DNA of 64,000 bases from Pelagibacterium luteolum. GTDB taxonomy: Bacteria > Pseudomonadota > Alphaproteobacteria > Rhizobiales > Devosiaceae. This document shows, one piece after another, positions 205 through 16,975 of the stretch (the first letter of the stretch is position 1; every line of letters begins with the position of its first letter). The notes under the pieces are model-generated. The model was not told the DNA's origin, searched no databases, and worked only from the letters and a program-made list of their open reading frames with translations. Both the position numbers and the translations under genes were made by a program. The stretch spans positions 355,119 through 419,118 of the forward strand of contig NZ_FNCS01000001.1 of the NCBI RefSeq assembly GCF_900100665.1, written 5' to 3'.

Positions 205-214
205 CTGCGTCATC

Positions 215-237: not shown

Positions 238-241
238 GGCA

Positions 242-1480: not shown

Positions 1481-1482
1481 GG

Positions 1483-2349: not shown

Positions 2350-2444
2350 GCGGCGAAAGCGTCGGCTATAAATCCCTAAGTGTAAGCCCCCGGTGGCAGC
2401 TAGTTTGTTCGTGTCAGAACAACTTGCCTCAAGAGGGTGTGACC

Positions 2445-2648
2445 ATGCTTCGCAAGCCGCTTTATACTGTGAACGACTTCCTTTCCGAGTTCAGCGTAAG
2501 CCGCTGGACGTTCTACCGCCTTGTCAACTCTGGAGAGTTGAAGGCCAAGAAAATGGGATCGCGCACAGTCGTTACCGCAGCCGATGCCCAGGCATGGCTT
2601 GATAGCCTGCCAGGCCGCGACCCCCAGGCCGAGGCGAACGCCGCCTAA
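2445..2648 (+). CDS. Small helix-turn-helix protein, excisionase/AlpA-like
   Basis: A 67-aa protein with an N-terminal winged helix-turn-helix of the MerR/excisionase type. The tract YTVNDFLSEFSVSRWTFYRL is followed by 'NSGELKAKKMGSRTVVTAADAQAWL', the usual layout of HTH_17 excisionase and AlpA-type regulators. The start follows an AGAGGG ribosome site 9 bases upstream; longer in-frame starts would run into the 3' end of the preceding gene. Lying just downstream of the integrase, it could act as the recombination directionality factor (xis) or an activator of int. The HTH call is firm; the excisionase role is inferred from fold and position. Confidence 0.8.
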   Translation: MLRKPLYTVNDFLSEFSVSRWTFYRLVNSGELKAKKMGSRTVVTAADAQAWLDSLPGRDPQAEANAA

Positions 2649-2665
2649 CCAAAACCCAAAAGAAA

Positions 2666-2691
2666 GGCCCCAACGGCAAGAGCCGGGGGCC
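2666..2691. other. GC-rich hairpin between small genes
   Basis: GGCCCC (2666-2671) pairs with GGGGCC (2686-2691), and an inner GGC pairs with GCC. On the plus strand no T-run follows, so it is not a clear forward terminator; on the minus strand it is followed by a T-rich tract. It may shape the mRNA between the HTH gene and the next start. Confidence 0.4.
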
Positions 2692-2705
2692 AGAGAGATA
2701 ATTCC

Positions 2706-2930
2706 ATGACATCGCTATACCACGAGCGCGCCTTGCCGCGCAACGATACCGGCTTGCCTAATTTCTGGATGGCCGACCTATCCCCCACAACTCCCCCCGA
2801 GCGCGATTGCGAGCCCCAGCGCGGGCTAACGAGCGGTGGCCGTCTGGTGTTTTCCCGCACTGGCCGGCCCGCCTCGACTTGCAACGCAATCGCCCGTCTC
2901 GCTGGCATCGGAGAACCCGAACATGTCTAA
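2706..2930 (+). CDS. Small hypothetical protein, 74 aa
   Basis: Unrecognised. It starts with ATG after GAGAGA and ends inside the start region of the next gene (8-bp overlap), the tight packing expected of a phage-type operon. It is rich in Pro, Arg and Thr with two cysteines and has no obvious domain. It could be a spurious frame over a leader region, but position, ribosome site and overlap favour a real gene. Confidence 0.5.
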   Translation: MTSLYHERALPRNDTGLPNFWMADLSPTTPPERDCEPQRGLTSGGRLVFSRTGRPASTCNAIARLAGIGEPEHV

Positions 2931-3288
2931 ACTCACCTTGACCGTTACCATCCACCATGAAGGCCAGCCCCCGGCATCGTTTACCGCAGTGGGGCGCGTT
3001 GCGTGGGCCTTGTTGCACTTGCTCAATGCCGGCCCGAAAGGGATTACCGTGATTGAGCGACCAGCCCCGCGTTGGAGCCAATACATCATGTTGTTGCGGC
3101 GCAGCGGCGTTGCGATCGAGACGAGGGACGAGCCCCACGAAGGCGACTTCGCCGGCCATCATGGACGCTACATTCTGCATAGCCGCGTGACCGTCGCAGG
3201 GGGCAACCTCACCGAATGGCTCCAGAGCCCAACCGGACGCCGCGACTTCCCCGATGGCCTTCGCCCCAGTCGGCTGGAGGCAGCATGA
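2923..3288 (+). CDS. Winged-helix domain protein, phage type, 121 aa
   Basis: The central segment (about residues 24-80) has the pattern of a winged-helix domain found in short phage and island proteins: a helix 'WALLHLLNAGPKGITVIE', a recognition-helix-like 'WSQYIMLLRRSGVAI' and a wing ending in 'GRYILHS'. The ATG at 2923 follows GGAGAA and is preferred over an in-frame upstream ATG at 2836. It overlaps both its upstream and downstream neighbours. Lying immediately before the helicase module, it may bind DNA during replication or control the operon; that role is inferred. Confidence 0.7.
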   Translation: MSKLTLTVTIHHEGQPPASFTAVGRVAWALLHLLNAGPKGITVIERPAPRWSQYIMLLRRSGVAIETRDEPHEGDFAGHHGRYILHSRVTVAGGNLTEWLQSPTGRRDFPDGLRPSRLEAA

Positions 3289-3467
3289 AAGCCCAGGCCG
3301 ACAAGCGGGCAGATGAGGCGGTGGAGTGGCTTGTTGCGAATTGGGCGCAGGCCATCAACAAGCCCTTGACTGTCACCCTCAAAGACAAATTCGGGTTGGG
3401 GCGCGCTGAGTGCCCCGCCATCATCGCTAGGGCGATCCGTCAACGCCAGCTTGGGGGTGCGCAATGA
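3285..3467 (+). CDS. Small hypothetical protein, 60 aa
   Basis: A 60-aa polar, helical protein with overlapping starts and stops at both ends (ATGA with the preceding gene, ATGA with the helicase), so it is almost certainly translated in a coupled operon. The residues 'ADKRADEAVEWLVANWA' suggest an amphipathic helix, followed by a short HTH-like 'LKDKFGLGRAECPAIIARAI'. It has no known family. Its place between a winged-helix protein and DnaB hints at a replication accessory, which is inference. Confidence 0.7.
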   Translation: MKAQADKRADEAVEWLVANWAQAINKPLTVTLKDKFGLGRAECPAIIARAIRQRQLGGAQ

Positions 3468-4900
3468 CTCTCGAGAGTTGGGGCTACGTTGCCGAGATCG
3501 AGCAAGACGTTTTGGGCGGCATCCTTGCGGGGGGCGACCATCGCGGCGTGCTGTCCGAGCTGGAAGACGATTGTTTCCTTGAGCCGATCCATCGCGAAAT
3601 CATGGCTGCAATCCGGGTGGCAAGCGAGCGCTATGGCACGACCGCGCTACCTACCGTCGCAAAGCTCATACCCAAAGAAACGCTCGAATCCTTCAAGCGC
3701 CAAACGGGTGGCGAGCTGGGGCCATACCTTGCCGGCATAGTCGGGCAAAGGAGCTTGGGCGGGGCAATGCTGATCCGGGGCGCGCGGGCCGTCAAAAGCC
3801 AATGGGCGCGCATAGAGATGGGCCTGGAGGTTGCAGCCGCGACCGAGGCGGCACGCGACCCCCAGACCGACCACAAGCGGCTGGCCGTGTCCCTTATGGG
3901 TACCCTAGACGAAATAGCAGCCAGGGCCGGAAAGGGTGCGCGCACTCAAACCTGCATGGCTATTGGTGACGCGGTGGGGGCTGCCTTGGACGAGGCAAGA
4001 GAAGCGCGGGCGCGCGGTGGGCTAGGAGGCATCACAACGGGCCTTGTGGACCTCGACCGGGCAACAGGCGGCTTTCATCGCCGCGACCTCGCCATAATGG
4101 CAGCCCGTCCGTCCATGGGTAAGACGACAATAGGGATCGAGTTTGCAAGGGCCGCTGCAATGGCTGGCCATGGCGTCGGTTTCTTCTCCCTCGAAATGGA
4201 CAACGCCAAGTTGGGCGCGCGCTTCGCCAGCTCGATCGCCAACCTATCGGGCACGCGCGTTCCCTATCAGGACATCATCAAGGGGGACATTGGCGAGGCG
4301 CAAGAGCGGGCCATTGAGGGCGCGCGCGAACGCTTTCGGGATCTGCCTATCATCCTTGAGGACCAGTCGGGGCTCACCATGGCGCAAATGCGCGCCAAAA
4401 CCGAAAGCATGCTGGAGGCCGCAGAGCGCCAAGGCTGCCCAATGCAGCTCTTGCTAGTGGACCATCTGGGCAAGGTGAAGCCCAGTACCCGCTACGCCGG
4501 CAACCGCAACAACGAGATTGGCGAAATCACAGACGGGCTCAAAGAGCTGGCCCGAGAGTATGAGATTGCGGTGGTGCTCTTGTCGCAGCTCAGCCGAGGC
4601 GTTGAAAGCCGAGAGGACAAGCGGCCAGGCCTTATGGACTTACGCGATTCTGGCAACATCGAGCAGGACGCCGACAGCGTGTTTTTCCTCTATCGCGAGG
4701 CCTATTACCTGGAGCGCGCGCGGCCAGACGACCCCGACAAGCGGATTGAATGGGAGGCCGATCTGAGCGCCGTTCGCAACGCTGCAGAGCTGATTATCGG
4801 CAAGCAGCGCAATGGCCCGACATGCACGATCGATCTGTTTATGGACATGGCCGTTTCCAGCGTCGGCAATGCCACGCGGGCACACGAAGCCGCAGCATAG
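3464..4900 (+). CDS. Replicative DNA helicase, DnaB type
   Basis: Ring helicase that unwinds DNA at the element's replication fork using ATP. Residues 10-95 form the DnaB N-terminal helical domain. The RecA-like domain starts near 188, with Walker A at 214-222 (ARPSMGKTT, Lys220), Walker B at 329-335 (Asp333), the LLSQLSRGVE motif at 372-381 and the 'DLRDSGNIEQDAD' motif at 392-404, all diagnostic of DnaB. The length of 478 aa matches chromosomal DnaB. It overlaps the preceding gene by 4 bp and is followed by a DUF1376 protein, so the element likely directs its own replication but would borrow host primase and polymerase. This is an element copy, not the host dnaB. Confidence 0.93.
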   Translation: MTLESWGYVAEIEQDVLGGILAGGDHRGVLSELEDDCFLEPIHREIMAAIRVASERYGTTALPTVAKLIPKETLESFKRQTGGELGPYLAGIVGQRSLGGAMLIRGARAVKSQWARIEMGLEVAAATEAARDPQTDHKRLAVSLMGTLDEIAARAGKGARTQTCMAIGDAVGAALDEAREARARGGLGGITTGLVDLDRATGGFHRRDLAIMAARPSMGKTTIGIEFARAAAMAGHGVGFFSLEMDNAKLGARFASSIANLSGTRVPYQDIIKGDIGEAQERAIEGARERFRDLPIILEDQSGLTMAQMRAKTESMLEAAERQGCPMQLLLVDHLGKVKPSTRYAGNRNNEIGEITDGLKELAREYEIAVVLLSQLSRGVESREDKRPGLMDLRDSGNIEQDADSVFFLYREAYYLERARPDDPDKRIEWEADLSAVRNAAELIIGKQRNGPTCTIDLFMDMAVSSVGNATRAHEAAA

Positions 4901-4914
4901 AAAGAACCCGAGCT

Positions 4915-5808
4915 ATGGCACAATTCCCAGCCTTGCCCCTCTTCACTGATGCGTACCTAGCCGACACGCGCCACCTGTCTGCAGAGCAGCATGGGGCCTA
5001 TTTGTTGCTGCTCATGGAAGCATGGCGGCGCCCGTCTTGCGCTTTGCCAGATGATGACGACACCTTGGCGCGCTTGGCCTGTCTCAGCAGCGAGCGATGG
5101 GCAGTCAATCGTGACACGGTAATGGCATTCTGGACCCTTGACGGCCGCAAGCGAGAATGGACGCAAGCCCGACTGCTCGATGAACGCGCTTATGTAGTCA
5201 AAAAAAGCCAGTCGCAGAGCGACAAAGCCGCAAAGCGTTGGAATAGAACGAAAAAAGCTGATGCCGTGGCAATGCCGGAAGGTATGCCGGAAGCATGCCC
5301 CAGCGATGCCCCCACACCCACACCCACACCCATTAAAGTAGATACTAGCGTATCTACTTTGTCGGATGGACAGAAGCGATCGAAAGCAAGGAAAGCCTAC
5401 ACGCCGGAGTATGAGGGCTTTTGGGCTAACTACCCCTCAACCCAAGGCATGTCCAAGCTAGACGGCTTCAAGGCTTGGCAGGGGCTCACCGCAACACAGC
5501 AAGCCCAGGCGGTGGCCTCTATCCCCGCCTATAAGGCCCTCTTGGCGAGAACGCCCGACCGCAAGGTCAAGCATGTCCAAGGCTACCTCAACGGGCGCAT
5601 GTTCGAGAGCTTTACAGGCGAGACAGTGACCGAGCTGGAAACCCCCGAGCGGTGGAGGATGCGCCTGGAGCACGCGCGGGTTAACCGCATGTGGCATTCC
5701 CAGAAGTGGGGGCCGATGCCAGGGCAGAGCGGGTGCCGGGTGCCGGGTGATTTGCTGGCCGATGGTGATGGCGCTGGCTGGAGAGATGAGGCCAAAAAAG
5801 CAGCGTGA
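4915..5808 (+). CDS. DUF1376 phage replication protein (YdaU-like)
   Basis: Residues 4-85 carry the DUF1376 signature ('PALPLFTDAYLADT', then 'EQHGAYLLLLMEAW'), a domain found in phage and prophage replication-initiation or primosome-type proteins. A low-complexity Thr-Pro linker (about residues 130-140) precedes a C-terminal helical domain that resembles the DnaT/DnaD-like half of such proteins. The ATG at 4915 is chosen because it starts directly at the domain; a longer frame reaches back into the helicase gene. Pairing with DnaB suggests it loads the helicase. The linker DNA holds a striking inverted repeat that may be an origin. Confidence 0.8.
   Translation: MAQFPALPLFTDAYLADTRHLSAEQHGAYLLLLMEAWRRPSCALPDDDDTLARLACLSSERWAVNRDTVMAFWTLDGRKREWTQARLLDERAYVVKKSQSQSDKAAKRWNRTKKADAVAMPEGMPEACPSDAPTPTPTPIKVDTSVSTLSDGQKRSKARKAYTPEYEGFWANYPSTQGMSKLDGFKAWQGLTATQQAQAVASIPAYKALLARTPDRKVKHVQGYLNGRMFESFTGETVTELETPERWRMRLEHARVNRMWHSQKWGPMPGQSGCRVPGDLLADGDGAGWRDEAKKAA
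5312..5360. repeat. Inverted repeat and ACACCC repeats within the DUF1376 gene, possible origin
   Basis: A perfect 11-bp inverted repeat, AAAGTAGATAC / GTATCTACTTT (5335-5345 and 5350-5360, 4-base loop), lies in the inter-domain linker, directly after three or more tandem ACACCC units. It is AT-rich in an otherwise GC-rich gene. Lambda places its origin inside initiator gene O; by analogy this may be the element's origin. The repeat is seen; the function is inferred. Confidence 0.5.
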
Positions 5809-5886
5809 ACGACAGCATCTAACAGCCACTTACGGAATATAACAAAGCCTTACAAATCAATAACTTAGCTTTCTGGAACCCTGTTT

Positions 5887-5905
5887 TTGTGCTAGTCTTG
5901 CACAA
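5887..5905. promoter_or_regulatory. TTGTGC-N7-GCACAA operator-like palindrome
   Basis: Perfect 6-bp arms separated by 7 bases, within the AT-rich 125-bp gap after the DUF1376 gene and 29 bp before the ribbon-helix-helix-like gene. The position suits an operator controlling the downstream cassette. No convincing -35/-10 pair was fixed. Confidence 0.4.
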
Positions 5906-5933
5906 GATTCGATTTGCCCGCGAGGAACGCAAA

Positions 5934-6113
5934 ATGCGCTCGAAACTTCAGACCCGCGACCCTTTGGACGACCGGCTCCATATCGCCATCACCCCCGAGC
6001 AGAAACGCCAGGCGTTTGAAGCGGCGGCACGGAAAGGCGTCAGCGTCAGCCAGCTCATGCGCGTGGCGATCGACAAGGCCATAAACAGCCCCCGCGAACC
6101 GATGGAGGCTTAG
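5934..6113 (+). CDS. Small ribbon-helix-helix-like protein, 59 aa
   Basis: The sequence contains a beta strand 'RLHIAITPEQKRQAFEAAA' followed by 'GVSVSQLMRVAIDKAI', the beta-helix-helix pattern of CopG/Arc-type ribbon-helix-helix regulators. The ATG at 5934 is preceded by GAGGAA; a longer frame from 5889 would begin inside the upstream palindrome. It stands three bases before the first ejection-like gene, so it may autoregulate that cassette through the palindrome upstream. The fold assignment is from pattern only. Confidence 0.65.
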   Translation: MRSKLQTRDPLDDRLHIAITPEQKRQAFEAAARKGVSVSQLMRVAIDKAINSPREPMEA

Positions 6114-6116
6114 GCC

Positions 6117-7232
6117 ATGGCGACCCAGCAGAACCGCACAGGTCTCCTAGACATGATGGGCCAGGGCGACAGTGGTTTCGCCAACTGGCTCAATCCACGA
6201 CGCAACGCAATAATGGGGTTCGGGGCCGGACTGGTCGGGCACGACACGGCCAAGGGGCGAATGGCGGGTGCCGTCCAAGGCATGATGCAAGGGCGCGAAC
6301 AAGACACGGCCTACCAGACGCTGCAGCAAGAGCAGGCCGACCGACAGCAGGCGGTTCTCAAGGCAGCCGGCGCAATGCGCGAACGCGGTTATGGCGACAT
6401 TGCCGATTTTGTGGAGCAAGGCGGGATGGACCCCCAAACCGGGTGGACCTCGATCCTTCGCAACATGTCCGACCGCACCGCTGGCAACCCGTTTGAGTTG
6501 CGGACGGTTGGGGATTCCCTGCTACGTGTGAACACGGCAACGGGCGAGTTCGACACAATTTTCGCGGGCTCGCAAGCGCCGACCCCGACCGACACCCAGC
6601 GCAACCTTGAATGGCGCGCTGCCCAGGCAGGGCTAGCGCCGGGCACGCCGGAATATCAGCAATTCATGCTTTCGGGCGGATCTGGTGGCACCTCGCTTTC
6701 GGTAACGCCGGATGGCGGGGTTACTTTCAGCCAGGGCGGTGGCACGCGCCCTTTGACCGAGCAGCAAAGCAAGGACGCGGTCTATGCTACCCGCGCGGCG
6801 GGCGCACTCGGGACGTTGAACGAGTACGACACAGAGCTAACCAACTTCGTGCAAGGCGCGATGGGCAACGACCCAACCGGGCTCATTCGCGGGCAGCAGT
6901 CCGCAGAGTATCAGGTGGCCGATGTGGCGGGGCGCGAGTTCCTTGCGGCCATCCTGCGCAAAGACTCGGGCGCGGCCATCCAAGAATACGAAATGCAAAA
7001 CTACGGGGCCATGTTCCTACCCCGCCCAGGCGATACCCCCGCAACGATCGAGTACAAGCGCCTCGCTCGCCAAAGGGCGCAAGAGGCCCTTGAAGCGGGC
7101 ATGTCTCCCCAGGCGATTATCAACCAAGAGAACGCCTTGCGGGCTTCGGGCGGCACGGCACCTTTCCAGGTCAATGGCCAGCCCCAACCGGGTGGTGCCG
7201 GTGGCAGCTCTGACCCTCTAGGAATCCGCTAA
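6117..7232 (+). CDS. Putative phage internal virion / DNA-ejection protein, 371 aa
   Basis: A soluble protein rich in Gln, Gly and Ala. Its C-terminal half carries 'LRKDSGAAIQEYE' and, further on, 'FLPRPGDTPATIEYKRLARQ', a pattern I associate with podovirus internal or injection proteins that lie between tail and tail-fibre genes. The N-terminal region has 'GFGAGLVGHDTAKGRMAGAVQGMMQGREQD', again common in such proteins. It has no signal peptide and no clear membrane span. The stop overlaps the next start by one base. Ejection proteins normally travel inside the capsid and form the channel for DNA entry. The family match is from memory, so the product name is tentative. Confidence 0.6.
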   Translation: MATQQNRTGLLDMMGQGDSGFANWLNPRRNAIMGFGAGLVGHDTAKGRMAGAVQGMMQGREQDTAYQTLQQEQADRQQAVLKAAGAMRERGYGDIADFVEQGGMDPQTGWTSILRNMSDRTAGNPFELRTVGDSLLRVNTATGEFDTIFAGSQAPTPTDTQRNLEWRAAQAGLAPGTPEYQQFMLSGGSGGTSLSVTPDGGVTFSQGGGTRPLTEQQSKDAVYATRAAGALGTLNEYDTELTNFVQGAMGNDPTGLIRGQQSAEYQVADVAGREFLAAILRKDSGAAIQEYEMQNYGAMFLPRPGDTPATIEYKRLARQRAQEALEAGMSPQAIINQENALRASGGTAPFQVNGQPQPGGAGGSSDPLGIR

Positions 7233-9451
7233 TGGCCTCGATCGCTGAAATCCGCCAGCAGTACCCGCAATATCAGGACTTGAGCGACCAGCAGCTTGCC
7301 GACGCGCTCTATAGCAAGTTTTACAGCGACATGCCGCGCGCTGAGTTCAACCAGCGTGTCGGGCTGGGGGCGCAACAGCAGCAAGACCCCGCCAACCCGA
7401 CGATAAGCGCGGGCGGGCGACAGATACCGATGGCCGAATATCAGGCGATGAGTGAAGCCGAGCGGCAGGCCATCCGTGGCGAGATTGCCGCAAGCGGTTC
7501 TCACAGTCCAGCCCAGCAGACCCCCGCGCCGCAGCAAGCCAACCCGCTTGCCGAGGCCGCAGCGGCAGGGCTGACTTGGACAGAAAACGCTATTTCGGGG
7601 ATTCCGATCGCGGGGCCGGCGCTCCAGGGAATTGGCGACCTCGCAACCACTGAAATCGGCGGGCGTCTCACAGGGCAAGACCCGGCTGCCATGCGCGAGC
7701 AACTGACGGCGAACCGCGACCAGCGAGCTCAGCAGTTCCCCATGACGGCAGCGTCGGGCAGTATCAGCGGCGCGGTGGTGCCCATGCTGGCCGCAGGCGG
7801 GACAACGCTGGGGGCGCAGGCTCTTGGCGTTACCGGCCCTTCTCTTGGCGCGCGGGTTGCGGCGTCTGGGACGTCGGGCGGCGTCGTCTCGGGGCTCGAT
7901 ACGGCAGCGCGAGGCGGCACGCCAACCGACATTGCGGCAAGTACCGGCATCGGGGCAGGCTTGGGGGCAGCCGTCCCAGGTGTGGCCGCGCTGGCATCAT
8001 CGGCGGGCGGGGCAGGGCAGAACGTGTTTAACACCTTGCGCGGCAGCACAGGGGGCAACGTGGACGATTTGGCGGCGCTCCGTCTGTCCGCTGCTCGCGG
8101 TGTGGACCAGTCCGGTGGCCTTCCAATGCTGACCCAGGCCGACGAGGCAGCGGCACGCCTTAACGGCCAGCCAATCCTAAACATGGACCGGGGCGGGCAA
8201 ACGACGCTTTCCCTGATGCGCTCTGCAGCGAACCGCAACCCCAATGCTCTGGGCACCGTTACCAGCGCGGTCAATGAGCGCTTTGGCATGCAGTCGAGGC
8301 GAACAGTCGATTTTTTCAACCGCGTGATGGGCGGTGACGTTTCGGATCTGGCGCGGCGTGAGGAAATCGGCACCGTGGCCCGGGCCGTCAATGACGTAAA
8401 TTATCAGCGCGCAATGTCGAGCCCTCAAGCGCAAGTCGTCTGGAATCGCGACCTGCAAAACCTGATGCAGTCCGACGCAGTGCAGCGATCCGTCGCAAAC
8501 GTTGGGCGTCGATCGTCAAACCTTGAGGCCTTGAGCGGCCAGGTAGCTATTCGCAATCCGTTTGTACAAGGCCGCGATGGTATCTATCGGGTCGCATCTT
8601 CAAACGGGCGCGAGGCTTACCCGAACCTGGCGTTCTGGGACATGGTCAAGCGAGACCTCGACAGCCAGATCGGCGTAGCTCAGAGGTCCGGCGACAAGTC
8701 CTTGTCCGGTGACCTTATGGCCGTCAAAACCCGGCTTGTTTCAACCCTTGATGCACAGGTCCCGGCCTATGGGAAAGCGCGGGCAGGGGCATCCTCATTC
8801 TTCGGGGCAGAAAACGCATTAGACGCAGGGCGTAATGCTTGGAGGGCACCAAAGGCGATCGATGAATCCCTAGCCGCACTGGGGAAGCTGTCCCCTCCAG
8901 ATCGGAGAGCCTTTGAGGTTGGCCTTGTGTCCCAGATCATGGACGATGTCCGGGCAGGGAACAACCGTGTCAATATGATGCGCTATTTTGATACGCCGGC
9001 GCGCAAGCAGCTTCTGGCTGAAGTCCTAGGCCCCAGGAAGGCGCGGGAGATGGAAGCCTTTGTCCGCATTGAGGATATCATGGAACGGGGGCGGTCTGCT
9101 CTTGGGGGCTCCACGACAACGCGGCAGCTTCAAGAGCTTGGGCTATCCAGTGCCATGGGGGCAGGCGCTGGCGGGTTTAGCGGCCTAATGACTGGCGACC
9201 TTTCAACCGGGCTAACGGTTGGCATGATGGCAATGGCAGGGCGCAGGGGCTATCAGTCTCTTGGCAAGAAAGCAGACGACGCCATCCTGCAGCGTGTGGC
9301 CGAAATGCTGGCCTCTGGCGACCCCGCGCTAATCCAGCGGGCTACCGCGAACGCCATGCTGAGCAAGCCACACATGCAGGCTCTAGAGGCCATCCAACGC
9401 GGCATTGGCGCGGTGGCGCGCGGTTCGGCTGTCATGGCCGCAACCGATTAA
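7232..9451 (+). CDS. Putative phage DNA-ejection protein with membrane-active Gly-rich region, 739 aa
   Basis: Residues 4-45 match a short domain ('IRQQYPQYQDLSDQQLADAL' then 'YSDMPRAEF') that begins many large podovirus internal proteins and some prophage transglycosylase-type proteins. A long Gly/Ala-rich hydrophobic stretch (about 173-262) and a second one near the C-terminus could insert into or cross a membrane. The rest is helical. Size and layout resemble the long ejection proteins (P22 gp16, T7 gp15/gp16 class). It is translationally coupled to the preceding gene. The function is inferred from architecture and from the hydrolase gene downstream. Confidence 0.6.
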   Translation: MASIAEIRQQYPQYQDLSDQQLADALYSKFYSDMPRAEFNQRVGLGAQQQQDPANPTISAGGRQIPMAEYQAMSEAERQAIRGEIAASGSHSPAQQTPAPQQANPLAEAAAAGLTWTENAISGIPIAGPALQGIGDLATTEIGGRLTGQDPAAMREQLTANRDQRAQQFPMTAASGSISGAVVPMLAAGGTTLGAQALGVTGPSLGARVAASGTSGGVVSGLDTAARGGTPTDIAASTGIGAGLGAAVPGVAALASSAGGAGQNVFNTLRGSTGGNVDDLAALRLSAARGVDQSGGLPMLTQADEAAARLNGQPILNMDRGGQTTLSLMRSAANRNPNALGTVTSAVNERFGMQSRRTVDFFNRVMGGDVSDLARREEIGTVARAVNDVNYQRAMSSPQAQVVWNRDLQNLMQSDAVQRSVANVGRRSSNLEALSGQVAIRNPFVQGRDGIYRVASSNGREAYPNLAFWDMVKRDLDSQIGVAQRSGDKSLSGDLMAVKTRLVSTLDAQVPAYGKARAGASSFFGAENALDAGRNAWRAPKAIDESLAALGKLSPPDRRAFEVGLVSQIMDDVRAGNNRVNMMRYFDTPARKQLLAEVLGPRKAREMEAFVRIEDIMERGRSALGGSTTTRQLQELGLSSAMGAGAGGFSGLMTGDLSTGLTVGMMAMAGRRGYQSLGKKADDAILQRVAEMLASGDPALIQRATANAMLSKPHMQALEAIQRGIGAVARGSAVMAATD

Positions 9452-9588
9452 CCGCCAAAGAACGGGGCAATCCACTCATGCACAATTCGGCTGTCATGAA
9501 GCCAGAAAAAGACGGGGGCCAGGACGACCACGGCGATGGCATAGCCAATGTAGTGCCAGGCGTCATAGCGCGGTTCTTCGGGTTGCAT
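9448..9588 (-). CDS. Antiparallel small membrane protein, 46 aa
   Basis: A short minus-strand frame that exactly fills the gap between two large plus-strand genes; its stop codon overlaps the stop of the upstream neighbour. The product has one hydrophobic segment (residues 14-29, 'IGYAIAVVVLAPVFFW'), a polar N-terminus and an aromatic C-terminus ending PFFGG. Only a weak purine-rich site precedes the ATG. A single-span protein next to a cell-wall hydrolase could be holin-like, but the orientation is wrong for co-expression. It may be a separately expressed lysogenic gene or a chance frame. Confidence 0.5.
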   Translation of the reverse strand: MQPEEPRYDAWHYIGYAIAVVVLAPVFFWLHDSRIVHEWIAPFFGG

Positions 9589-9620
9589 GAAGGCTCACTT
9601 TGTTTGCGGGGCTCTAACCA

Positions 9621-11624
9621 ATGGCAAATCTAAACACGCTTTCGCCTCGCGACCAAGAGCTACTCATCAGACTGGCGGCAACCGAGGTTGACCATCGGCT
9701 TGCGGCCATCAACCCGCAAGAGTACGCGCGCCAAGCCCAAGGCGTGATCGATACGGTTCTAAACCGCGTGGCTTCGCCAGAGTTTCCCAACACCATCGAG
9801 GGGGTGGCAAACCAGAGGCGGCAATTCAGCAAGATAACCGGCCCTTCCAACCTAAACCCCTATGGCGAGGTTGCGAGCATTCCCGCAAGCGTGGTGCCGG
9901 CTGAGTTTCGCGACCTTGCCGCCTCTCACTTGCAGTCGAGGCAGTCGGGGGCACCGTCAACAATCGGCGGTGGCCTGCACTACGCCAACCCTGCAGCAAT
10001 CACCCCGAACAATCGTGGGTGGGTTTCGGCCTTGTCGGGGCCAAGGGTGGGCGAGGGGCAATTTACGCATGTCCACGGCACCACAGAGGGCTTTACACCA
10101 GTCGAGGCGACCTTTGCCCCGCGCGTGCCTCCAACGCCCCCCAGGCGTCCCGAAACGGCTCTAGCGGCCATCGACGGGGCAATGGGTGGCGGCAGCCCTC
10201 CAGCGCGACCGGAATCCCTTGCAGCCTATATGCCAGGCTCAACCCAGGCTGCGCCGCCAGCCCTGCCCCCGCAGCTCCCCCGGCGCGATCCTCGCATGGC
10301 CTCGCGGCAAATCAACGCTCTTGCCGGCGCTGTCCCCGATGAGGTTTTGCCAAGGCTCAATGACGCCAACATCAACGAGCGCGTTATTGACGCCTATGGC
10401 CCAGACCCCCAGGCGACGAGCCCCACGCAAGACCTCTGGTTGGATTATCAAGCCTGGATGGAGCAAAGCACGCCGGGAACGCCTTCTGGCCGATACCCTC
10501 GATCGGCTCCCGATTTGCCAGTGAACGTGCCTAGCACGCCAAGCGCGCGCCAACCCCGCATGGTCCCGGCTGTCCCGGCACAGGTGCCAAGCACACCCTC
10601 TGCGCGAGGTGGTCGGGTGGCAAGCTCTGCCCCCGTACCTGTTACGCCGCCCATGGCCCCGCCGCGCCCGCCGATTAATGCGCCGTCAACGCCATCGGCG
10701 CGAGGGGGGCGCAGTGCAGCCCCTGCCTATCCGCAGCGCACAATGGCCTCGCTAGGCAACGTCCTATCGTCTGGCGTCATGGACCCCGCAACCGACATGG
10801 GGCCCTACAATGCCATCATCGACCAGTATCGGCCCGGTTCGGCAGTGCCGCCTTTGCCGCAAGCCGACCCCAGAACCCAAATGGGCAACGTGCCATTCCC
10901 TTGGCCCGACAGCTTGCCGACAGTGGCGACGCCGGGTGTGCCGGGGCCTATCGACCCAGTGACCGCAGCACCAGTTCTAACGGCTGACTTGCCGCCTCTC
11001 CGATCGAGCGCGCCCACACAAGTGGCAAGCGCTCCTGTGCCACCAATGCGCCCCTCTGGGCTATCGGCTCCTCAGTACGCGCCCCCGCCTGCCCCTGCTC
11101 AGGTCGCAGCACTTCCACAAGTGCCGGTGCCGCCTCAGAGGCCACCCATGGCGACGTTCGCAGGCGAAACAGTCGGCGCGAACCCACTAGAGGCCTTTGT
11201 CGGCGGCGTGCAAAACTTCGCTCAGAACGGCGGGCTCTTGGGCATGGGGGCCAATCTCCTGACCGGTCGCGGCTTCTTGCCGGGTGATGCGGGCGTTCTG
11301 CCCCAATTCAGGCAACAGATTCAGGACCGGATGGGCGAAGGCGCGGACCCGATCAGCGCCTTGTTTTCGCGCCGCGTCATGCCTGCCCCAACGTTCTCTA
11401 CGTCGAGGCCAGAAGGGCGGTCGGTGCGGGCAACTCAGGTCGGGCCATCGGGCACGCGGGAAGGCTATCTCACGGCGTCCCAGAAGCCGCGCGTCGGCTC
11501 GGGCAACTACAACGCATCGGTTCGGGACGCCAACATGGCTGCGCTTCGCAATGCCGAGGGCAGGACCATGCGCGAAAAGATCGAAAACCATATGCGTTCG
11601 GGCGGAGCGCTTCATAAGGCATAG
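9621..11624 (+). CDS. Cell-wall hydrolase (SleB-like) with long Pro-rich repeat tail, 667 aa
   Basis: Residues 12-155 resemble SleB/CwlJ-type peptidoglycan hydrolases: 'RLAATEVDHR' with candidate catalytic Glu22, 'GVIDTVLNRVASPEFPNTIEG', the QFS motif (68-70) and 'LHYANP' (119-124). From about 160 the protein becomes a disordered Pro/Ala/Ser-rich chain with four STPSAR-type units (283-294, 303-313, 322-332, 354-364), then a helical C-terminus. Joining a hydrolase head to a long flexible tail without a signal peptide is typical of virion-associated lysins that open the wall during DNA entry. It is the last gene of the ejection-like cassette. The hydrolase call is good; the virion role is inferred. 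Confidence 0.75.
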   Translation: MANLNTLSPRDQELLIRLAATEVDHRLAAINPQEYARQAQGVIDTVLNRVASPEFPNTIEGVANQRRQFSKITGPSNLNPYGEVASIPASVVPAEFRDLAASHLQSRQSGAPSTIGGGLHYANPAAITPNNRGWVSALSGPRVGEGQFTHVHGTTEGFTPVEATFAPRVPPTPPRRPETALAAIDGAMGGGSPPARPESLAAYMPGSTQAAPPALPPQLPRRDPRMASRQINALAGAVPDEVLPRLNDANINERVIDAYGPDPQATSPTQDLWLDYQAWMEQSTPGTPSGRYPRSAPDLPVNVPSTPSARQPRMVPAVPAQVPSTPSARGGRVASSAPVPVTPPMAPPRPPINAPSTPSARGGRSAAPAYPQRTMASLGNVLSSGVMDPATDMGPYNAIIDQYRPGSAVPPLPQADPRTQMGNVPFPWPDSLPTVATPGVPGPIDPVTAAPVLTADLPPLRSSAPTQVASAPVPPMRPSGLSAPQYAPPPAPAQVAALPQVPVPPQRPPMATFAGETVGANPLEAFVGGVQNFAQNGGLLGMGANLLTGRGFLPGDAGVLPQFRQQIQDRMGEGADPISALFSRRVMPAPTFSTSRPEGRSVRATQVGPSGTREGYLTASQKPRVGSGNYNASVRDANMAALRNAEGRTMREKIENHMRSGGALHKA

Positions 11625-11633
11625 GGGTAGCCC

Positions 11634-12017
11634 ATGAGACTCGACCAACAGCAAGCCCAGCTTCAAGGCGACGAGACGCCCCAGGCGGCAACCGGCATCG
11701 AGAGCGCATTGGTCACTGTGCCATTGCGGCAAGCGATTGGTGACGCCGCCTACGGCTATGAGATGATGCTAGACATCGCTTACGGGCTTATCTCCAGCCC
11801 TTGCCCAGAGATGTGGCTTGACTACCTCGACCGCCTCCAGCCTGAGCTTTGGCCAGCTCTGCGACGGAATGGATGGCAGCCCCCAAGGATGCCCGCTTAT
11901 GCGTCGGACCCCATTGGGCACATGCAAATAGCTGCCCCGTACCTCCGAAAGATTCGCCCTCTTGTCGGCGTTGACGCTATCCAAACAGCCGGCACCCCGG
12001 CTGAAAAACAATCATAG
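11634..12017 (+). CDS. Hypothetical protein, 127 aa
   Basis: Unrecognised. It begins 10 bp after the hydrolase gene and is probably in the same transcript. The product is a soluble helical protein with an acidic, aromatic middle ('EMWLDYLDRLQPELWPALRR') and no signal or membrane segment. It converges on the minus-strand exported-protein gene only 4 bp away, with no visible terminator between them. A chaperone or small virion accessory for the cassette is conceivable but unsupported. Confidence 0.65.
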   Translation: MRLDQQQAQLQGDETPQAATGIESALVTVPLRQAIGDAAYGYEMMLDIAYGLISSPCPEMWLDYLDRLQPELWPALRRNGWQPPRMPAYASDPIGHMQIAAPYLRKIRPLVGVDAIQTAGTPAEKQS

Positions 12018-12021
12018 GCAA

Positions 12022-12501
12022 TCAATCGATCGCCTCCAGAGGCGTCAGAAACCCGCCATCGAAGCTATAGGGCACGACATCACCGTTGAAGGTTTCCACT
12101 AACTCGGGGAAGCCATCGCCATCGACATCGCTAAGGGCTGGCACTTCCAGAGGCAGCACAGTCATTCGCCACAGCGCGCCATCGGCATAGGACCATGCCA
12201 GAACGCCAGTAACGGCCCCGTAAGTCGAGGAACGGTCATAGGCCGGGACAAAGGCCACAGGGTCACAGCCCCCACACAAGGGGCCGACATAGACCGCGCT
12301 AGGGTCAACAGCGGCGTTTGCCACAGTGACTTTCAGCAAGTCCGAAAAGTTGCCCCCCAATGCAACAGTGACGTTCCGTTGGTTGTCGTCCTGCACGATG
12401 GAAAGGGTGTCTCCTCCGTCATTAAGCTCAATGGTTGTTTCTTGAGCGACTGCAGACGATGCAGCAAGGCCAAGGCAAAGGGCTATCGCAAGCGTTCTCA
12501 T
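12022..12501 (-). CDS. Predicted secreted protein, 159 aa
   Basis: A Sec signal peptide (residues 1-20, cleavage after AVA-Q) precedes a beta-rich domain. A CGGC pair (near 97-100) and '[10 protein letters not shown]', an Asp-rich loop of the calcium-binding FG-GAP/dockerin kind, are visible. It overlaps the upstream XRE regulator gene by 4 bp, so the two are co-transcribed from the divergent promoter and are likely expressed in the integrated state. Such a pair suggests a lysogenic-conversion gene. No family is recognised. Confidence 0.7.
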
Positions 12502-12740
12502 TCCGCGCTCCCTTTCGGCTTCTCCAGACGCACACCAGCGCCCCCGCCATTCTCAGGGATGAAGCGCACACCGGCTGCCTCAAGTGCCGACTTCATCGCG
12601 GCCAGGTTGTTGGCCACTGGCACCGATCGGCCAGCCTCAAAGTTCCGAACGGTCGAGTTCCCGACATTGGCTGTCTTGGCCAAATCGTCTTGCGACATTG
12701 CAACGAGTGCCCGCGCCGCGCGGCATTGCTCCGGTGTCAT
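12498..12740 (-). CDS. XRE-family HTH transcriptional regulator, 80 aa
   Basis: Residues 3-58 form a Cro/C1-type helix-turn-helix ('[20 protein letters not shown]', '[18 protein letters not shown]'). The protein has no dimerisation or peptidase domain, so it is the short kind common in islands and prophages. It is transcribed divergently from the small-gene operon starting at 12855, with a 114-bp gap carrying repeated TAACGGTTA boxes. It is the best candidate for the element's master repressor. The downstream secreted-protein gene is translationally coupled. Confidence 0.85.
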
Positions 12741-12854
12741 GTGCTTTCCTTGCTGAATAACATTCCTCGTTGTCTATAACGGAAACCGTTTGACAAGTCA
12801 CTAAGTAACGGTTAGCGTTGTGTCTAACGGTTAACGTTACTAGGAGTGAGGACG
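12741..12854. promoter_or_regulatory. Divergent control region with TAACGGTTA boxes
   Basis: Two exact TAACGGTTA boxes (12806-12814, 12825-12833; 19 bp apart) and a degenerate third near 12777 (TAACGGAAACCG) fill the gap between the XRE regulator and the rightward operon. A perfect -35 TTGACA lies at 12790-12795, and the first box falls over the expected -10. AGGAG at 12842 is the ribosome site for the rightward gene. Repressor binding to the boxes is inferred. Confidence 0.6.
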
Positions 12855-13160
12855 ATGGAAATCAAAAAACAGGTAATGACGATGGCTTGGGCAGAGTACC
12901 GCAAACAGGTTGGCCAGGGCTTCGCTTTCAGCCGCAAGTTGTTTGCCGCGCACCTTTCATGCGCTTGGGACGTATGCCGCGCCCTCGCCATGCAAGCGCA
13001 GATCGAGGCGCAAGAGGCTGCCAAGCTCAGCAGCGGCAATGCTCTGGAGCGCCGCGCCGCTGAAATCCGCGCCGACCTTCGCGCGCTGGAAACGGCGGAC
13101 TTCGTTGACTGGCGCGCTCACGGCCAGCTTTCCGCGCAACTCTTTAGCCTCGCCGCATAG
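12855..13160 (+). CDS. Hypothetical protein, first gene of the rightward operon, 101 aa
   Basis: Starts at an ATG 8 bases after AGGAG, preferred over an in-frame GTG at 12846. The product is a basic-to-neutral helical protein ('VMTMAWAEYRKQVGQGFAFS' near the N-terminus) with two cysteines and no known domain. As the first gene under the divergent switch it would be among the earliest made on induction. Cro-like or antirepressor functions are possible by position only; it shows no HTH. Confidence 0.7.
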   Translation: MEIKKQVMTMAWAEYRKQVGQGFAFSRKLFAAHLSCAWDVCRALAMQAQIEAQEAAKLSSGNALERRAAEIRADLRALETADFVDWRAHGQLSAQLFSLAA

Positions 13161-13195
13161 GCGGGGCCAGCATCGATTTTAGGAGGGATCGACCA

Positions 13196-13951
13196 ATGGC
13201 CAACACTTCACTTGTTACCAACCGCCGCCGCGTCCTACTCGGACTTGCCGCCGCAAGCGCAGCCGCCACCACCCCAGTGGCAGCGATGGCACCCGCAGCC
13301 CCAGCCGAAAACCCGGCGCTGCTCAATCTGGCCAAGCAATTCGCCAAGGCCATCCGCGAAATGAAACAGGCCAAGGCCGCGCTGTCAGGGTGTTGCAGGG
13401 ATTGGGCCCACCAGTGGCCAGATGCACCCGAAGCAATCAACGCAACGCCGGGCGGATGGGGCGAAGCTGCCGAGACGTTCAAGGGCCATACAGAGCGCAG
13501 GCACGTTCTGACTTCCGATGGGCTGGGCACCGACATCGCTACCGTTCGCAAGGCTATTGCCCGCAAGCGCAAACACCCGGAGCGCCCATTCCACGTATTC
13601 TTGAACCATTCCGGATGGAGGGCGGAAGCAACCCGTGACGATTGGGAAGCCGAGCTCGAACAGCTTCGGGACCTCCAGCAGATTGCTGCGACATATGAGC
13701 GTGAAAAGGATTTCGTCCGTACTGCATCGCGTGTCCGGGAAATTTCGAGCCGTCAGTGCGCCGCGCTAGAGGCCGTGGTGGGAGTGGTTTCAAACATCAT
13801 GGCCGAACGCCCCGAAACTATGGAGGGAGTTGTCATCCAAGCGCAGGCTTTGGACGTCTGGAAAGCCGATGGGTGGGGCCTTATGGCCTCACTGGAGGAG
13901 GATTGGGCAGGCACGTTTGCAAGGAACTTGCTGCGCATCGCAGCGGTATAG
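13196..13951 (+). CDS. Predicted Tat-exported protein, 251 aa
   Basis: The N-terminus reads 'TNRRRVLLGLAAASAAATTP', a twin-arginine-type signal with an n-region of three arginines, a hydrophobic core and an Ala-rich cleavage zone around residues 28-37. The mature part is helical and charged, with several tryptophans and a coiled-coil-like stretch near 150-185. A strong AGGAGG ribosome site precedes the ATG. No enzyme motif is seen. Export of a folded protein from a mobile element is unusual and suggests an effect on the host envelope. Confidence 0.7.
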   Translation: MANTSLVTNRRRVLLGLAAASAAATTPVAAMAPAAPAENPALLNLAKQFAKAIREMKQAKAALSGCCRDWAHQWPDAPEAINATPGGWGEAAETFKGHTERRHVLTSDGLGTDIATVRKAIARKRKHPERPFHVFLNHSGWRAEATRDDWEAELEQLRDLQQIAATYEREKDFVRTASRVREISSRQCAALEAVVGVVSNIMAERPETMEGVVIQAQALDVWKADGWGLMASLEEDWAGTFARNLLRIAAV

Positions 13952-14024
13952 CGCCCCTTGAAACAAGCGGTTCGGGCAGGCGGCAACCTGTCCCGAGCTT
14001 TCAACCAAACCGATGGAGGTTCTT

Positions 14025-14333
14025 ATGGTTTCGCAGCAAGTACACAGCGGTGCCCGTCGCAGCGCAAGCGGCGCAAAGGCCGTTTCTTGGGGTGATTTTG
14101 TGGAGATGGAAGGCGACATAGCCGACCTGCCACGCCTCGCCTATCTGATATGGCAATCGCTGGACTACGCGGGCCTACTCAATGCAACAAAGAGCGAAGG
14201 CGTCACAGTCAGCCAGGATAGCGCCGAAACACTGATTTATGCAGTCGGCCTCCTAATGGGCGAGACAAAGGCGTTGAACGACAAATTCTATTCCGCTGCA
14301 GAAAAGGCATCAATCGAGGGGAATGCAAAATGA
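14025..14333 (+). CDS. Hypothetical protein, 102 aa
   Basis: The ATG at 14025 lies 5 bases after GGAGG; an in-frame ATG at 14013 sits upstream of that site and is rejected. The product is a soluble acidic helical protein of unknown family ('DFVEMEGDIADLPRLAYLIW', 'AVGLLMGETKALNDKF'). Its pattern resembles short proteins found beside toxin or regulator genes in Rhizobiales islands, but no domain can be named. It overlaps the next gene by 4 bp (ATGA). Confidence 0.65.
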   Translation: MVSQQVHSGARRSASGAKAVSWGDFVEMEGDIADLPRLAYLIWQSLDYAGLLNATKSEGVTVSQDSAETLIYAVGLLMGETKALNDKFYSAAEKASIEGNAK

Positions 14334-14761
14334 AACGCCGCAACCTTCTCAAATGCTTCCCTGGAGCAATGGCAGCGCCGGTCGCTCTTTTCTCAGCCCC
14401 AGCCAATGGGGGCGAACAGACCGCGCAAGAGCGCTTTGACTGGCACCTTGCCGAGTTGAAGCGCGCTGCCGAGGAATTGGACCCGATGATTAGCCATTGG
14501 CATTTAGCGCACCCTAAATGTGCTGGTGACTACCTGACCCTTACAGCCAGACGCGTCACAGGGCGATACACAGGCGACGGGATCTATGAGAGCGGGCAGG
14601 AAACAGTCACAGGCGGGCGCGTTCACTACCGCGTCGAGCTGACAGACGCGGTGATCGATGGAGCCCGAACCTTTAAGGTTTCCTGCTCCGGTGAGCACAG
14701 GCTGTTGTTGGAGTACGTCCTAGAGACACGTATCGGCAAGCGCGTTGGGGTGCTGTCATGA
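14330..14761 (+). CDS. Predicted exported protein, 143 aa
   Basis: Coupled to its neighbours by ATGA overlaps on both sides. The N-terminus 'MKRRNLLKCFPGAMAAPVAL' is a twin-arginine-like signal (KRRNLLK) with an Ala-rich c-region around residues 20-27. The mature domain is beta-rich with two cysteines ('PKCAGDYL', 'KVSCSGEHR') that could form a disulfide in the periplasm. It is the second protein with a Tat-like signal in this operon. No family is recognised. Confidence 0.65.
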   Translation: MKRRNLLKCFPGAMAAPVALFSAPANGGEQTAQERFDWHLAELKRAAEELDPMISHWHLAHPKCAGDYLTLTARRVTGRYTGDGIYESGQETVTGGRVHYRVELTDAVIDGARTFKVSCSGEHRLLLEYVLETRIGKRVGVLS

Positions 14762-14934
14762 CCGAACCCACTACGCTTGCCCTCAAGGCGAAAGCCCTGC
14801 TCGATGCGGTGGACTTTGACCAGCATGGGCGCATGGTTGCCGGCCAGTTTGTCGGCGGCAATGGCGGGCTCATATCGCGCGAGACAATCCGGGCAGCAGA
14901 CGAGTTGCGCAAGGTGCTGGAGGCCAGCCAATGA
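14758..14934 (+). CDS. Small hypothetical protein, 58 aa
   Basis: Begins with ATGA overlapping the previous stop and ends with ATGA overlapping the next start, so it is embedded in a coupled operon. The product starts MTEPTTLALKAKALLDAVDF and is a short helical polypeptide of unknown family. Both overlaps argue strongly that it is translated. Confidence 0.7.
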   Translation: MTEPTTLALKAKALLDAVDFDQHGRMVAGQFVGGNGGLISRETIRAADELRKVLEASQ

Positions 14935-15230
14935 ACCGCGCCGAGATCGAGAGCGAAATCGAGCGGCTTATTGCCCTTCTCGATGCCATGGACGGGGACA
15001 CTGACTTGGAGCCCGACAGCGACGACGAGCACGAGCCCGACCAGTGGGAGAACCCGGTTTCGCTCTGGCGTGACCAGCGACCCGCTAAACAGGTGAGAAG
15101 AGTATGTGTGTCATGCACTCACCCTCCAGCTCTGGCCGCTCACGCTCCAAGCGCAGGCATGGCCCTCACATGTTCCCAAGGGATGGTCATGATGACCACA
15201 CCACAGGGCCGCGCGAGGCGGGCAGCATGA
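14931..15230 (+). CDS. Small acidic hypothetical protein, up to 99 aa
   Basis: The first 50 residues form an acidic helix ('RAEIESEIERLIALLDAMDG') and a Asp/Glu-rich segment similar to short proteins common in Rhizobiales prophages. The last 45 residues are of different character (Cys, Pro, Met, Ala) and overlap the possible start region of the HNH gene. The tail may therefore be a run-through after loss of an earlier stop, or a real overlap. The start is ATGA-coupled to the previous gene. Confidence 0.6.
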   Translation: MNRAEIESEIERLIALLDAMDGDTDLEPDSDDEHEPDQWENPVSLWRDQRPAKQVRRVCVSCTHPPALAAHAPSAGMALTCSQGMVMMTTPQGRARRAA

Positions 15231-15548
15231 CGAGAGAGCAGCGGTATTGCTTCTACTGCGACAGCCTCCTATTGGCCGCACGCACCCCAGGCGACCCCCT
15301 TTCACCTACACGCGACCAATATCATTTCGCGATGGGCCTTGCGCCGCATGCGGTGGTATTTCCCGCGCTCTTGGCATGCAGCCAACACGGTTTGGGCGTG
15401 CGATGGCTGCAACCAGGCCAAGGGAAACTTGATGCCTTGGCAGTGGCTGGACCAATTGCCGACCGAACGAGCGCGGCAACGGTTTCTTGCCCGTTTGCGC
15501 GAGCTTGGCTGTCCCGACCTCAAACCTCTGGAGGTAGCCCAATGTTAG
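15230..15548 (+). pseudogene. HNH endonuclease gene broken by a +1 frameshift
   Basis: Frame one gives a zinc-binding 'RYCFYCDS' and then 'SPTRD'. After one extra A in the AA at 15318-15319, another frame continues 'IISRWALRR', then 'NTVWACDGCNQAKGN'. Removing one A restores a classic HNH layout: CxxC, TRDHIISR, then CDGCN. The gene would otherwise be about 106 aa, or 148 aa if the in-frame ATG at 15104 is used. The stop overlaps the ATG of the next gene. HNH nucleases in such elements act in packaging, homing or defence. It could also be a sequencing error. Confidence 0.7.
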
Positions 15549-16593: not shown

Positions 16594-16764
<171 letters not shown>

Positions 16765-16975
16765 GTATCGATGAACACGAGGGCGTAAAATCCGCCGCCG
16801 CGTTGGGTCGTTTGGGTGCGCGCTATATGGCATAGCGTGTGGCACCGGGCAACACCTTGTTTTGCGATTTGCAGGCCCTGTCGCAAAATATGTTTAAGGG
16901 CGAATAGCCTTGCCGCCGCGGCCCGATGAGGTCCCAACGAGGCGGAAGCGGAGATCAATTCTCCGCGCTAGTCCG

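Follow-up and report, generated by a model that had tools for sequence, protein, structure and literature searches.

The window analyzed here is a 64,000-bp stretch of DNA (window 1-64,000) from the Pelagibacterium luteolum contig NZ_FNCS01000001.1 (G000:C14:355119-419118), and coordinates are window positions unless prefixed by another label. At a tRNA-Ser gene, it holds a complete integrative element (80-16688, a unit of 16,593 bp given by the distance 16594-1) with an integrase, replication genes and phage ejection genes, all of which are intact open reading frames (ORFs). This element is probably (about 0.72) a satellite of podoviruses that brings its own DNA-ejection module; it is presumably transferred in particles in which its ejection genes play a role. 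The satellite reading is favoured over prophage decay because of complete attachment (att) sites, a joined attP junction in the assembly, four further elements of like layout, a small terminase (TerS) gene in two of these, a packaging (pac)-like match to a resident prophage, and the example of EcCIMP1, a phage-inducible chromosomal island (PICI) of Escherichia coli. The earlier suggestion of a satellite, made in a sequence-only reading of this DNA, is thereby supported in part; the change of host range that it also raised is at most a conjecture. The features on which the argument turns are the following:

1-95, no strand: attP-type junction, in which the right end (1-79) and the 16-bp core (80-95) are followed by the left end (96 on)
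6117-7232, plus strand: gp20-position ejection (injection) protein, 371 aa, putatively assigned from sequence matches and slot
7232-9451, plus strand: candidate gp16-position large ejection protein, 739 aa (phrog_5880 7.2e-64; 62% to the C37 722-aa protein; synteny)
9621-11624, plus strand: SleB-like cell wall hydrolase, 667 aa (Pfam Hydrolase_2 4.5e-8; slot after the ejection genes)
16279-16310, plus strand: candidate pac site, a 30/32 match to the C37 terS gene
16673-16688, no strand: attR core AATGGCGGAGAGGGAG, a 16-bp repeat common to attL and attP
16675-16764, minus strand: tRNA-Ser(cga), intact attachment gene (ARAGORN)

The left att core lies upstream of the window (L003 19714), and the right end, at 16688, adjoins tRNA-Ser(cga). 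Window 1-95 is identical to 16594-16688, a scaffold gap of 10 N lies directly before window base 1, and the attL tail upstream of this gap (L003 19714-19808) has exactly 95 bp in common with window 80-174. The attL, attR and joined attP sequences are all in the assembly, with mutual overlaps of exactly 95 bp each; judged from the sequence assembly only, such overlaps would be the trace expected when a de Bruijn assembler meets the integrated form together with a circular (or tandem) one. As all three junctions are present, the element either excises or sits in tandem. The stretch 16660-17400 (tRNA and/or motB) is matched in 13/13 genomes of the genus, its own included, and with this query the homology of the relatives at tRNA-Ser starts at window 16671-16675. 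The left flank has no match in the corresponding regions of three relatives (L100-L102), so that no empty site was demonstrated.

The three cassette genes are intact at the positions given by the sequence-only reading. Their closest relatives found belong to C37, a full podovirus prophage in the same genome with an Sf6-type TerS, a large terminase (TerL), an SU10-type portal, a scaffold, a major capsid protein and an adaptor. A 42,143-bp IMG/VR contig is identical to C37 over the 8,236 bp examined, and the C37 capsid protein shares 74% identity with that of Rhizobium phage RHph_N3_2 and 47% with that of Sulfitobacter phage pCB2047-A. The ejection region of C37, named by position, consists of four genes (363, 386, 722 and 604 aa), and the window cassette matches the last three (59%, 62% and 52%). 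The slots of RHph_N3_2 follow the same order as in C37 (structural, putative injection, structural, SleB-like), and those of APSE-2 are injection gp7, gp20 and gp16. C37 and RHph_N3_2 thus resemble the window element in the order of their ejection and hydrolase genes, yet C37 has terminase, portal and capsid genes, RHph_N3_2 has an annotated portal and capsid, and pCB2047-A has a capsid and terminase.

The 371-aa protein is chimeric, with a C37-like N-terminus (the 59% match is limited to about the first 80 residues) and a C-terminal part that resembles other podoviruses. Its residues 270-314 are 51% identical to the APSE-2 'injection gp20', its residues 198-340 are 47% identical to gp28 of EBPR podovirus 2, which is annotated as a peptidoglycan hydrolase, and it also matches Rhizobium phage entries named 'putative injection protein' at 30-32%. 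The 739-aa protein matches only phage families without assigned function (phrog_5880 and phrog_10691) and has no sequence match to the same-slot proteins of RHph_N3_2 and APSE-2. It is a candidate ejection protein by gene position, because the same slot follows the gp20-type gene in C37, RHph_N3_2 and APSE-2. The 667-aa protein carries a Cell Wall Hydrolase (SleB) domain and is 45% identical over 160 residues to the same-slot SleB-like protein of RHph_N3_2, in agreement with its first description as a SleB-like hydrolase. The ejection identity first proposed for the other two proteins holds by sequence match for one and by slot for the other, and finds no structural match for either. Their AlphaFold models are of low confidence (mean pLDDT 57 for the 371-aa and 67 for the 739-aa protein), profile searches of PDB sequences with both proteins gave nothing below 0.5, and the null structure searches speak neither for nor against an ejection function.

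Among 18 window ORFs scanned with PHROGs, 17 of which were also scanned with Pfam, none matched a family of capsid, portal, large terminase or tail proteins. A TerL profile (phrog_2) matches the host genome at C37 (two places) and at C25 and has no match in the element, and no TerS gene was found in the element in the PHROGs and Pfam scans. These scans agree with the earlier observation of an integrase and replication genes beside no visible morphogenesis gene. The P4-type capsid modifier genes include sid and psu; no such family is among the general PHROGs and Pfam matches, in which the P4 proteins themselves were not used as queries. In the broad sense, as an integrative element without a complete virion gene set of its own, the element is a phage satellite. 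It lacks the capsid, portal and terminases that define a capsid-forming PICI (cf-PICI), as well as the terminase, portal and capsid genes of an intact podovirus prophage, and at 16.6 kb and with other genes it differs from the phage-inducible chromosomal minimalist islands (PICMIs) of Vibrionaceae, which are minimal int-alpA-prim elements of ~6 kb. A PICI core consists of an integrase, an AlpA-type regulator and a primase/helicase, according to the available text of PMC11773190. Here, the integrase and replication genes are present, and the small helix-turn-helix (HTH) protein matches phrog_66 and no AlpA Pfam family. The window element has no packaging-redirection gene such as TerS, and EcCIMP1 is likewise without identifiable terminase genes.

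The integrase-replication-ejection layout, for which a wider search had been proposed, recurs in four further att-bounded elements of Hyphomicrobiales. Searches for the 739-aa family gave matches in 3/201 relatives, 13/397 genomes of the order and 2/385 genomes of the class (its own genome included in each), nine loci in a contig collection of 84,980 species searched with short peptide patterns, and at least 19 loci in viral contigs, which were not sorted one by one. The genome matches were sorted, unblinded, by reading ORF lists; G386, G476, G388, G246, L017 and L021 (unclear or too short) and the class match G547 were left unsorted. Many of the remaining loci carry head or tail genes. Five elements share the layout and have defined ends, and the four besides the window element (18.7-28.9 kb) lie at other tRNA genes:

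Window element: tRNA-Ser(cga), 16.6 kb, 16-bp core
G502, Aminobacter aganoensis: tRNA-Glu, 22.5 kb, 49-bp repeat
G498, Mesorhizobium metagenome-assembled genome: tRNA-Glu, 19.8 kb, 31 bp
G215: tRNA-Ser(gct), 18.7 kb, 14 bp
G504, Devosia ureilytica: tRNA-Ala, 28.9 kb, 15 bp

The four other elements yielded no capsid, portal, TerL or tail match among 97 ORFs (48 + 49) of at least 110 aa at a Pfam E of 1e-4, and a PHROGs scan covered 22 of their ORFs. G215 encodes a TerS (phrog_309 5.8e-18, with a match to Pfam GP3_package (TerS) too) and G504 a TerS-like protein (phrog_641 1.1e-5), and no large terminase was found in either element. A small protein whose gene directly precedes TerL in full prophages is encoded twice in G215. 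The large ejection gene is present in all five elements. Related prophages do have capsid and terminase genes in the homologous regions, which the sequence-only reading would take as a sign of simple deletion; however, the capsid-less versions recur in separate lineages and are not one deleted copy. The contig start beside the G215 element was considered as a second sign of excision and rejected, as the break coincides with a host repeat.

A possible link between the element and C37 is a short match outside the cassette. Against a 60-kb stretch of C37, the sole non-cassette DNA match of the element (E 0.01) is 16279-16310, which falls inside terS and beyond whose 32 bp the similarity ends abruptly. 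In P22-type phages, pac lies inside terS. The best ungapped score of the element minus its ejection genes against terS is 28, compared with at most 18 in 40 dinucleotide shuffles and at most 17 with 20 host targets; among the host controls, one chromosomal stretch weakly matches the prophage (24/28, E 0.036), far below the match of the element. A 29-mer with one free base finds a single stretch in 2.9 million viral contigs, which is the same C37 prophage. Since both mismatches of the 30/32 stretch are silent in the terS frame, origin as a terS relic stays an alternative. Shared pac or cos sequences are described as a means of pairing satellites with helpers in the available text of PMC11389934.

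The closest precedent is EcCIMP1, a 19,963-bp PICI at tRNA-Thr of E. coli MP1 which, in the available text of PMC11773190, was initially called a defective prophage and was later shown to circularize with, and be transduced by, phage vB_EcoP_Kapi1, of the genus Lederbergvirus (P22-like). On this account EcCIMP1 is an experimentally mobilized member of the same layout, and its authors take the ejection-type genes as packaging candidates (PMC11773190, available text). Its record lists int, HTH, a TOPRIM/DUF927 protein, DUF2824, a 225-aa protein, a 'phage DNA ejection protein' and a 906-aa transglycosylase-domain protein, with no annotated capsid or terminase, and parts of its proteins match APSE-2 gp7 (61% over 192 aa), gp20 (45% over 187) and gp16 (39% over 133). 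Like the window element, it combines a tRNA att site, an integrase, HTH regulators (HTH/AlpA in EcCIMP1) and a replication protein with an ejection cassette that follows them, in ~20 kb. Unlike the window element, it has three ejection-type genes and a DUF2824 gene, TOPRIM/DUF927 takes the place of DnaB, its sequences are of P22 type, and comparison with its helper at E 0.01 gave nothing like the terS match. The DNA match between EcCIMP1 and Kapi1 peaks (81%) where the cassette starts, across DUF2824 and into the gene after it, as the resemblance of the window element to its presumed helper also lies there, and the primase-ejection stretch of EcCIMP1 (at least 80%) occurs in 65 of 5,426 complete E. 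coli genomes.

Other satellites share fewer features. PICMIs resemble the window element in being integrative, with a replication gene of their own and without capsid-size genes, and helper heads of full size carry their DNA in concatemeric form, the ends of which suggest headful packaging; PICMI115 differs in its size of about 6 kb, its six main genes, the absence of any named ejection or hydrolase gene, and a virulent helper phage for which no pac or cos site is identified (PMC10803314, available text). In cf-PICIs and in the Mulch and Flayer satellites of Streptomyces phages, the satellite supplies a virion part, as is proposed here, but that part consists of head and packaging genes (PMC10690885, available text), whereas the window element has only an ejection/entry part and no head. 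Satellites are described as altering capsid size, redirecting packaging or, in cf-PICIs, making their own heads, as far as the available texts go, and podovirus ejection proteins as mosaic and needed for infectivity (PMC8954989, available text). A satellite with DNA-transfer-like genes appears in the available text of PMC11773190 but not in that of PMC6893505, PMC11389934, PMC10690885, PMC10803314 or PMC8954989, and no proposal of an ejection-supplying satellite was found in the available satellite literature (mostly freely available papers).

Backbone genes are common to several of the elements. The integrases fall into two groups, window/G215/G504 and G502/G498 (the window integrase is 47% identical to that of G215 and 44% to that of G504), and an excisionase-like HTH protein, a winged-helix protein and right-end genes are also common to elements. 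Some backbone genes occur in full prophages, namely DnaB in Maritalea and G306, and the winged-helix and HTH genes in G497b. The ejection genes of the elements match different prophages. A tree was built from 30 rows, of which 5 are labelled satellite, 23 prophage or viral and 2 unassigned; in it viral rows are assumed to be full phages, L017 is labelled prophage despite its unclear status, and some long branches are unsure. On this tree the satellite label requires five changes, at least four of them forced by well-supported branches, and shuffled labels average 4.8; the window row is sister to C37 with a support of 100/100. Given the different prophage matches and the scattered labels, ejection modules have most likely been captured several times.

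The divergence of the cassette from C37 looks constrained. The ratio of nonsynonymous to synonymous substitution rates (dN/dS) is 0.23 for the hydrolase (dS 1.65, near saturation) and 0.11 for codons 1-80 of the 371-aa gene (dS 3.08, near saturation). For the 739-aa gene, dS is saturated; here neutral simulations (n=500) give a mean of 13.4 stops and a minimum of 3, and none is observed.

Several findings weigh against the satellite reading. An attP-type junction could also arise by tandem duplication, and of the five elements only the window element shows one. The gene of the C37 first (gp7) position is absent from the window cassette, which has only the gp20 and gp16 positions of the P22-type three-gene set seen in APSE-2, so that the 'full entry apparatus' of the sequence-only reading was an overstatement. 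The expected structural relation to P22 and T7 ejection proteins did not emerge either: Foldseek comparison of both low-confidence models with the PDB gave nothing with E < 0.001. A gp20-type gene is present, on the authors' own reading, in three of the five elements (window, G502 and G215), and a SleB-type hydrolase in three (window, G502 and G504, the latter two below the Pfam cut-off). G502 and G498 each encode a homologue of a protein that lies among the structural genes of a full Aminobacter prophage, and this homologue could be a minor virion part. At E 0.01, no pac-like match was found between the G502, G215 and G504 elements and five TerL regions of their own genomes, or between EcCIMP1 and Kapi1, and the G498 genome has no TerL match with phrog_2. 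The transduction rate of EcCIMP1 is extremely low according to its authors (PMC11773190, available text). The dN/dS values span both branches, which leaves constraint on the satellite side alone unproven, and a disrupted HNH-like ORF lies near the right end of the element.

Among the other explanations, the one that fares best also takes the element to be a real satellite, in which the ejection genes serve as weapons or cargo: faulty virion subunits would make the helper less infective or confer immunity to superinfection, and the satellite DNA would enter by way of the ejection proteins of the helper. The lack of a gp7-position gene and the chimeric 371-aa protein, helper-like at its N-terminus and unlike it at its C-terminus, would suit such a role, but a SleB-type hydrolase is kept in three of the five elements, and the complete gp7-gp20-gp16 type set of EcCIMP1 exceeds the needs of a dominant-negative subunit. 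As an account in its own right this seems unlikely; helper interference by the same proteins is the nearest variant of the satellite reading, with which it overlaps, so that the confidences attached to the explanations do not sum to 1.

The main rival, rated slightly lower still, is a reduced prophage, that is, a decaying Maritalea-like podovirus prophage minus its head and packaging block, with the five elements as independent remnants. The Maritalea prophage retains a head block between its replication and ejection genes, and it and G306 have DnaB- and/or DUF1376-type replication genes in common with the window element; the disrupted HNH-like frame and the silent differences of the terS match, which could mark a lost terS, fit decay as well. 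Nevertheless, the five elements, with at least four ejection lineages, keep an integrase, replication genes and the large ejection gene between intact att sites, and the attP junction argues against a decayed prophage, as do the constrained look of the cassette, the abrupt confinement of the terS similarity to 32 bp, the two elements with TerS and no TerL found, and the history of EcCIMP1. Very improbable is a plasmid-like integrative element whose ejection genes are a chance acquisition and which spreads through natural transformation or host-element conjugation. In its favour, the element has its own replication genes, its 74-aa ribbon-helix-helix (RHH)-like ORF resembles the mobilisation protein NikA below the cut-off (0.0021), and relaxase-like and recombinase-like genes (by eye) share a contig with the distant relative G386, but no relaxase family turned up in Pfam scans of the window ORFs, the 739-aa protein has no matches in 72,556 plasmid records, and recurrent ejection cassettes from several phage lineages are hard to put down to chance.

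Under the satellite reading, induction of a helper such as C37, or infection by one, would set off mobilization: the satellite would excise by its own integrase and HTH protein, and its DnaB/primosome set would replicate it to circles or concatemers. Packaging by the headful would follow, carried out by the terminase of the helper and guided by the pac-like copy of the terS segment; in other elements a TerS of their own may take over this part. A helper head of ~42 kb (42.1 kb) would hold about 2.5 copies of the 16.6-kb unit, comparable to the concatemers of PICMIs, and capsid shrinking would therefore be unnecessary. Head, tail and terminase would be borrowed from the podovirus helper, and the ejection proteins of the satellite would load into particles beside or instead of those of the helper, the helper-like N-terminus of the 371-aa protein being perhaps the part required to fit the helper head. 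Once loaded, these proteins would carry DNA across wall and membrane, so that either the satellite's own entry is secured or the entry of the helper is impeded.

It is a more tentative proposal, held at somewhat under even odds, that such elements form a recurrent and phylogenetically scattered class of podovirus satellites (in Hyphomicrobiales, and as EcCIMP1-type PICIs in E. coli) which contributes ejection machinery alone to the virion, leaves head assembly and filling to the helper, determines its own entry route and re-captures these genes from each helper. If true, the ejection step would be a separable trait for satellites, the poorly understood compatibility of podovirus heads with different ejection proteins would become testable via natural swaps, and 'incomplete prophages' with ejection but no head genes would merit re-examination as satellites, as the case of EcCIMP1 illustrates.

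The gene order of the window element is integrase, 310-aa ORF, HTH, winged helix, DnaB, DUF1376, RHH-like ORF, two ejection genes and the SleB-like hydrolase, to the right of which lie small genes, a minus-strand HTH repressor and a Tat (twin-arginine translocation)-signal-like protein. The genes outside the cassette are as follows:

242-1480, plus strand: tyrosine integrase, 412 aa (phrog_1 1e-44; Pfam Phage_int_M, Arm-DNA-bind_3 and Phage_integrase)
1417-2349, plus strand: 310-aa protein overlapping the integrase gene, an ORF without strong family match
2445-2648, plus strand: small HTH protein, excisionase/regulator-like (phrog_66 3.6e-9; HTH_17 below cut-off; predicted start codon)
2923-3288, plus strand: winged-helix protein (Pfam HTH_91 2.1e-33; predicted start)
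3464-4900, plus strand: DnaB-like replicative helicase, 478 aa (phrog_19 1.6e-78; Pfam DnaB_C 1.7e-72)
4915-5808, plus strand: primosomal/replication protein (phrog_9327 1.9e-30; Pfam DUF1376 7.1e-15; predicted start)
5889-6113, plus strand: 74-aa RHH-like protein (weak, below-cut-off RHH and NikA-like matches)
11634-12017, plus strand: 127-aa protein, an ORF without family match
12498-12740, minus strand: 80-aa repressor-like protein (Pfam HTH_3 2.4e-5)
13196-13951, plus strand: Tat-signal-like protein, 251 aa (Tat reading by eye; without family match)
15230-15548, plus strand: HNH-like ORF, frame disrupted (halves in two frames, by eye; weak HNH_5 match, 0.016)

The label of phrog_66 is 'excisionase and transcriptional regulator'. 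Frames homologous to the winged-helix gene occur in G502 (47%), G215 (36%) and the full prophage G497b (38%), and G504 has a frame with 40% identity to the RHH-like protein across 50 aa. The G502 homologue of the HTH_3 protein matches the window, G498 and G504 as well as two non-satellite regions (G497b and G386). The Tat-signal-like right-end gene has a 27% homologue in G498, and a full prophage beside tRNA-Phe (L098/L099, G497:C12) carries a 39% homologue of the G498 gene; judged by sequence comparison, phages and satellites seem to exchange this gene. Close by, window 13969-14039 has an 86% DNA match of 73 bp to the second prophage-like region of the host, G000:C25 (L111 2444-2516); it sits upstream of a small ORF and is possibly a shared regulatory sequence.

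The other elements carry additional genes. Between its replication and ejection genes, the G502 element has a phrog_18731 protein and a DUF6932 protein (L020:6620-8163, minus strand), a two-gene unit that could be defence cargo. A DUF3800 match occurs in the G502/G498 set, assigned by eye to L014:16526-17269 (minus strand) in the Mesorhizobium element, and another in the G215/G504 set. The latter set also contains RhuM, PAS/GGDEF/EAL, SRAP and nuclease families, placed by eye in the 28.9-kb Devosia element (L011, L012), which may combine a satellite with other cargo. In two Sinorhizobium species, L017 and L018 have an ejection cassette and downstream genes in common; the upstream side of L017 differs from that of L018 and is without its portal-type gene, and L017 is possibly a true deleted prophage. 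Finally, in G386:C21 (L060, L061) a distant ejection cassette lies beside DnaB-like, recombinase-like and relaxase-like genes, identified by eye, on what is perhaps a plasmid-like contig.

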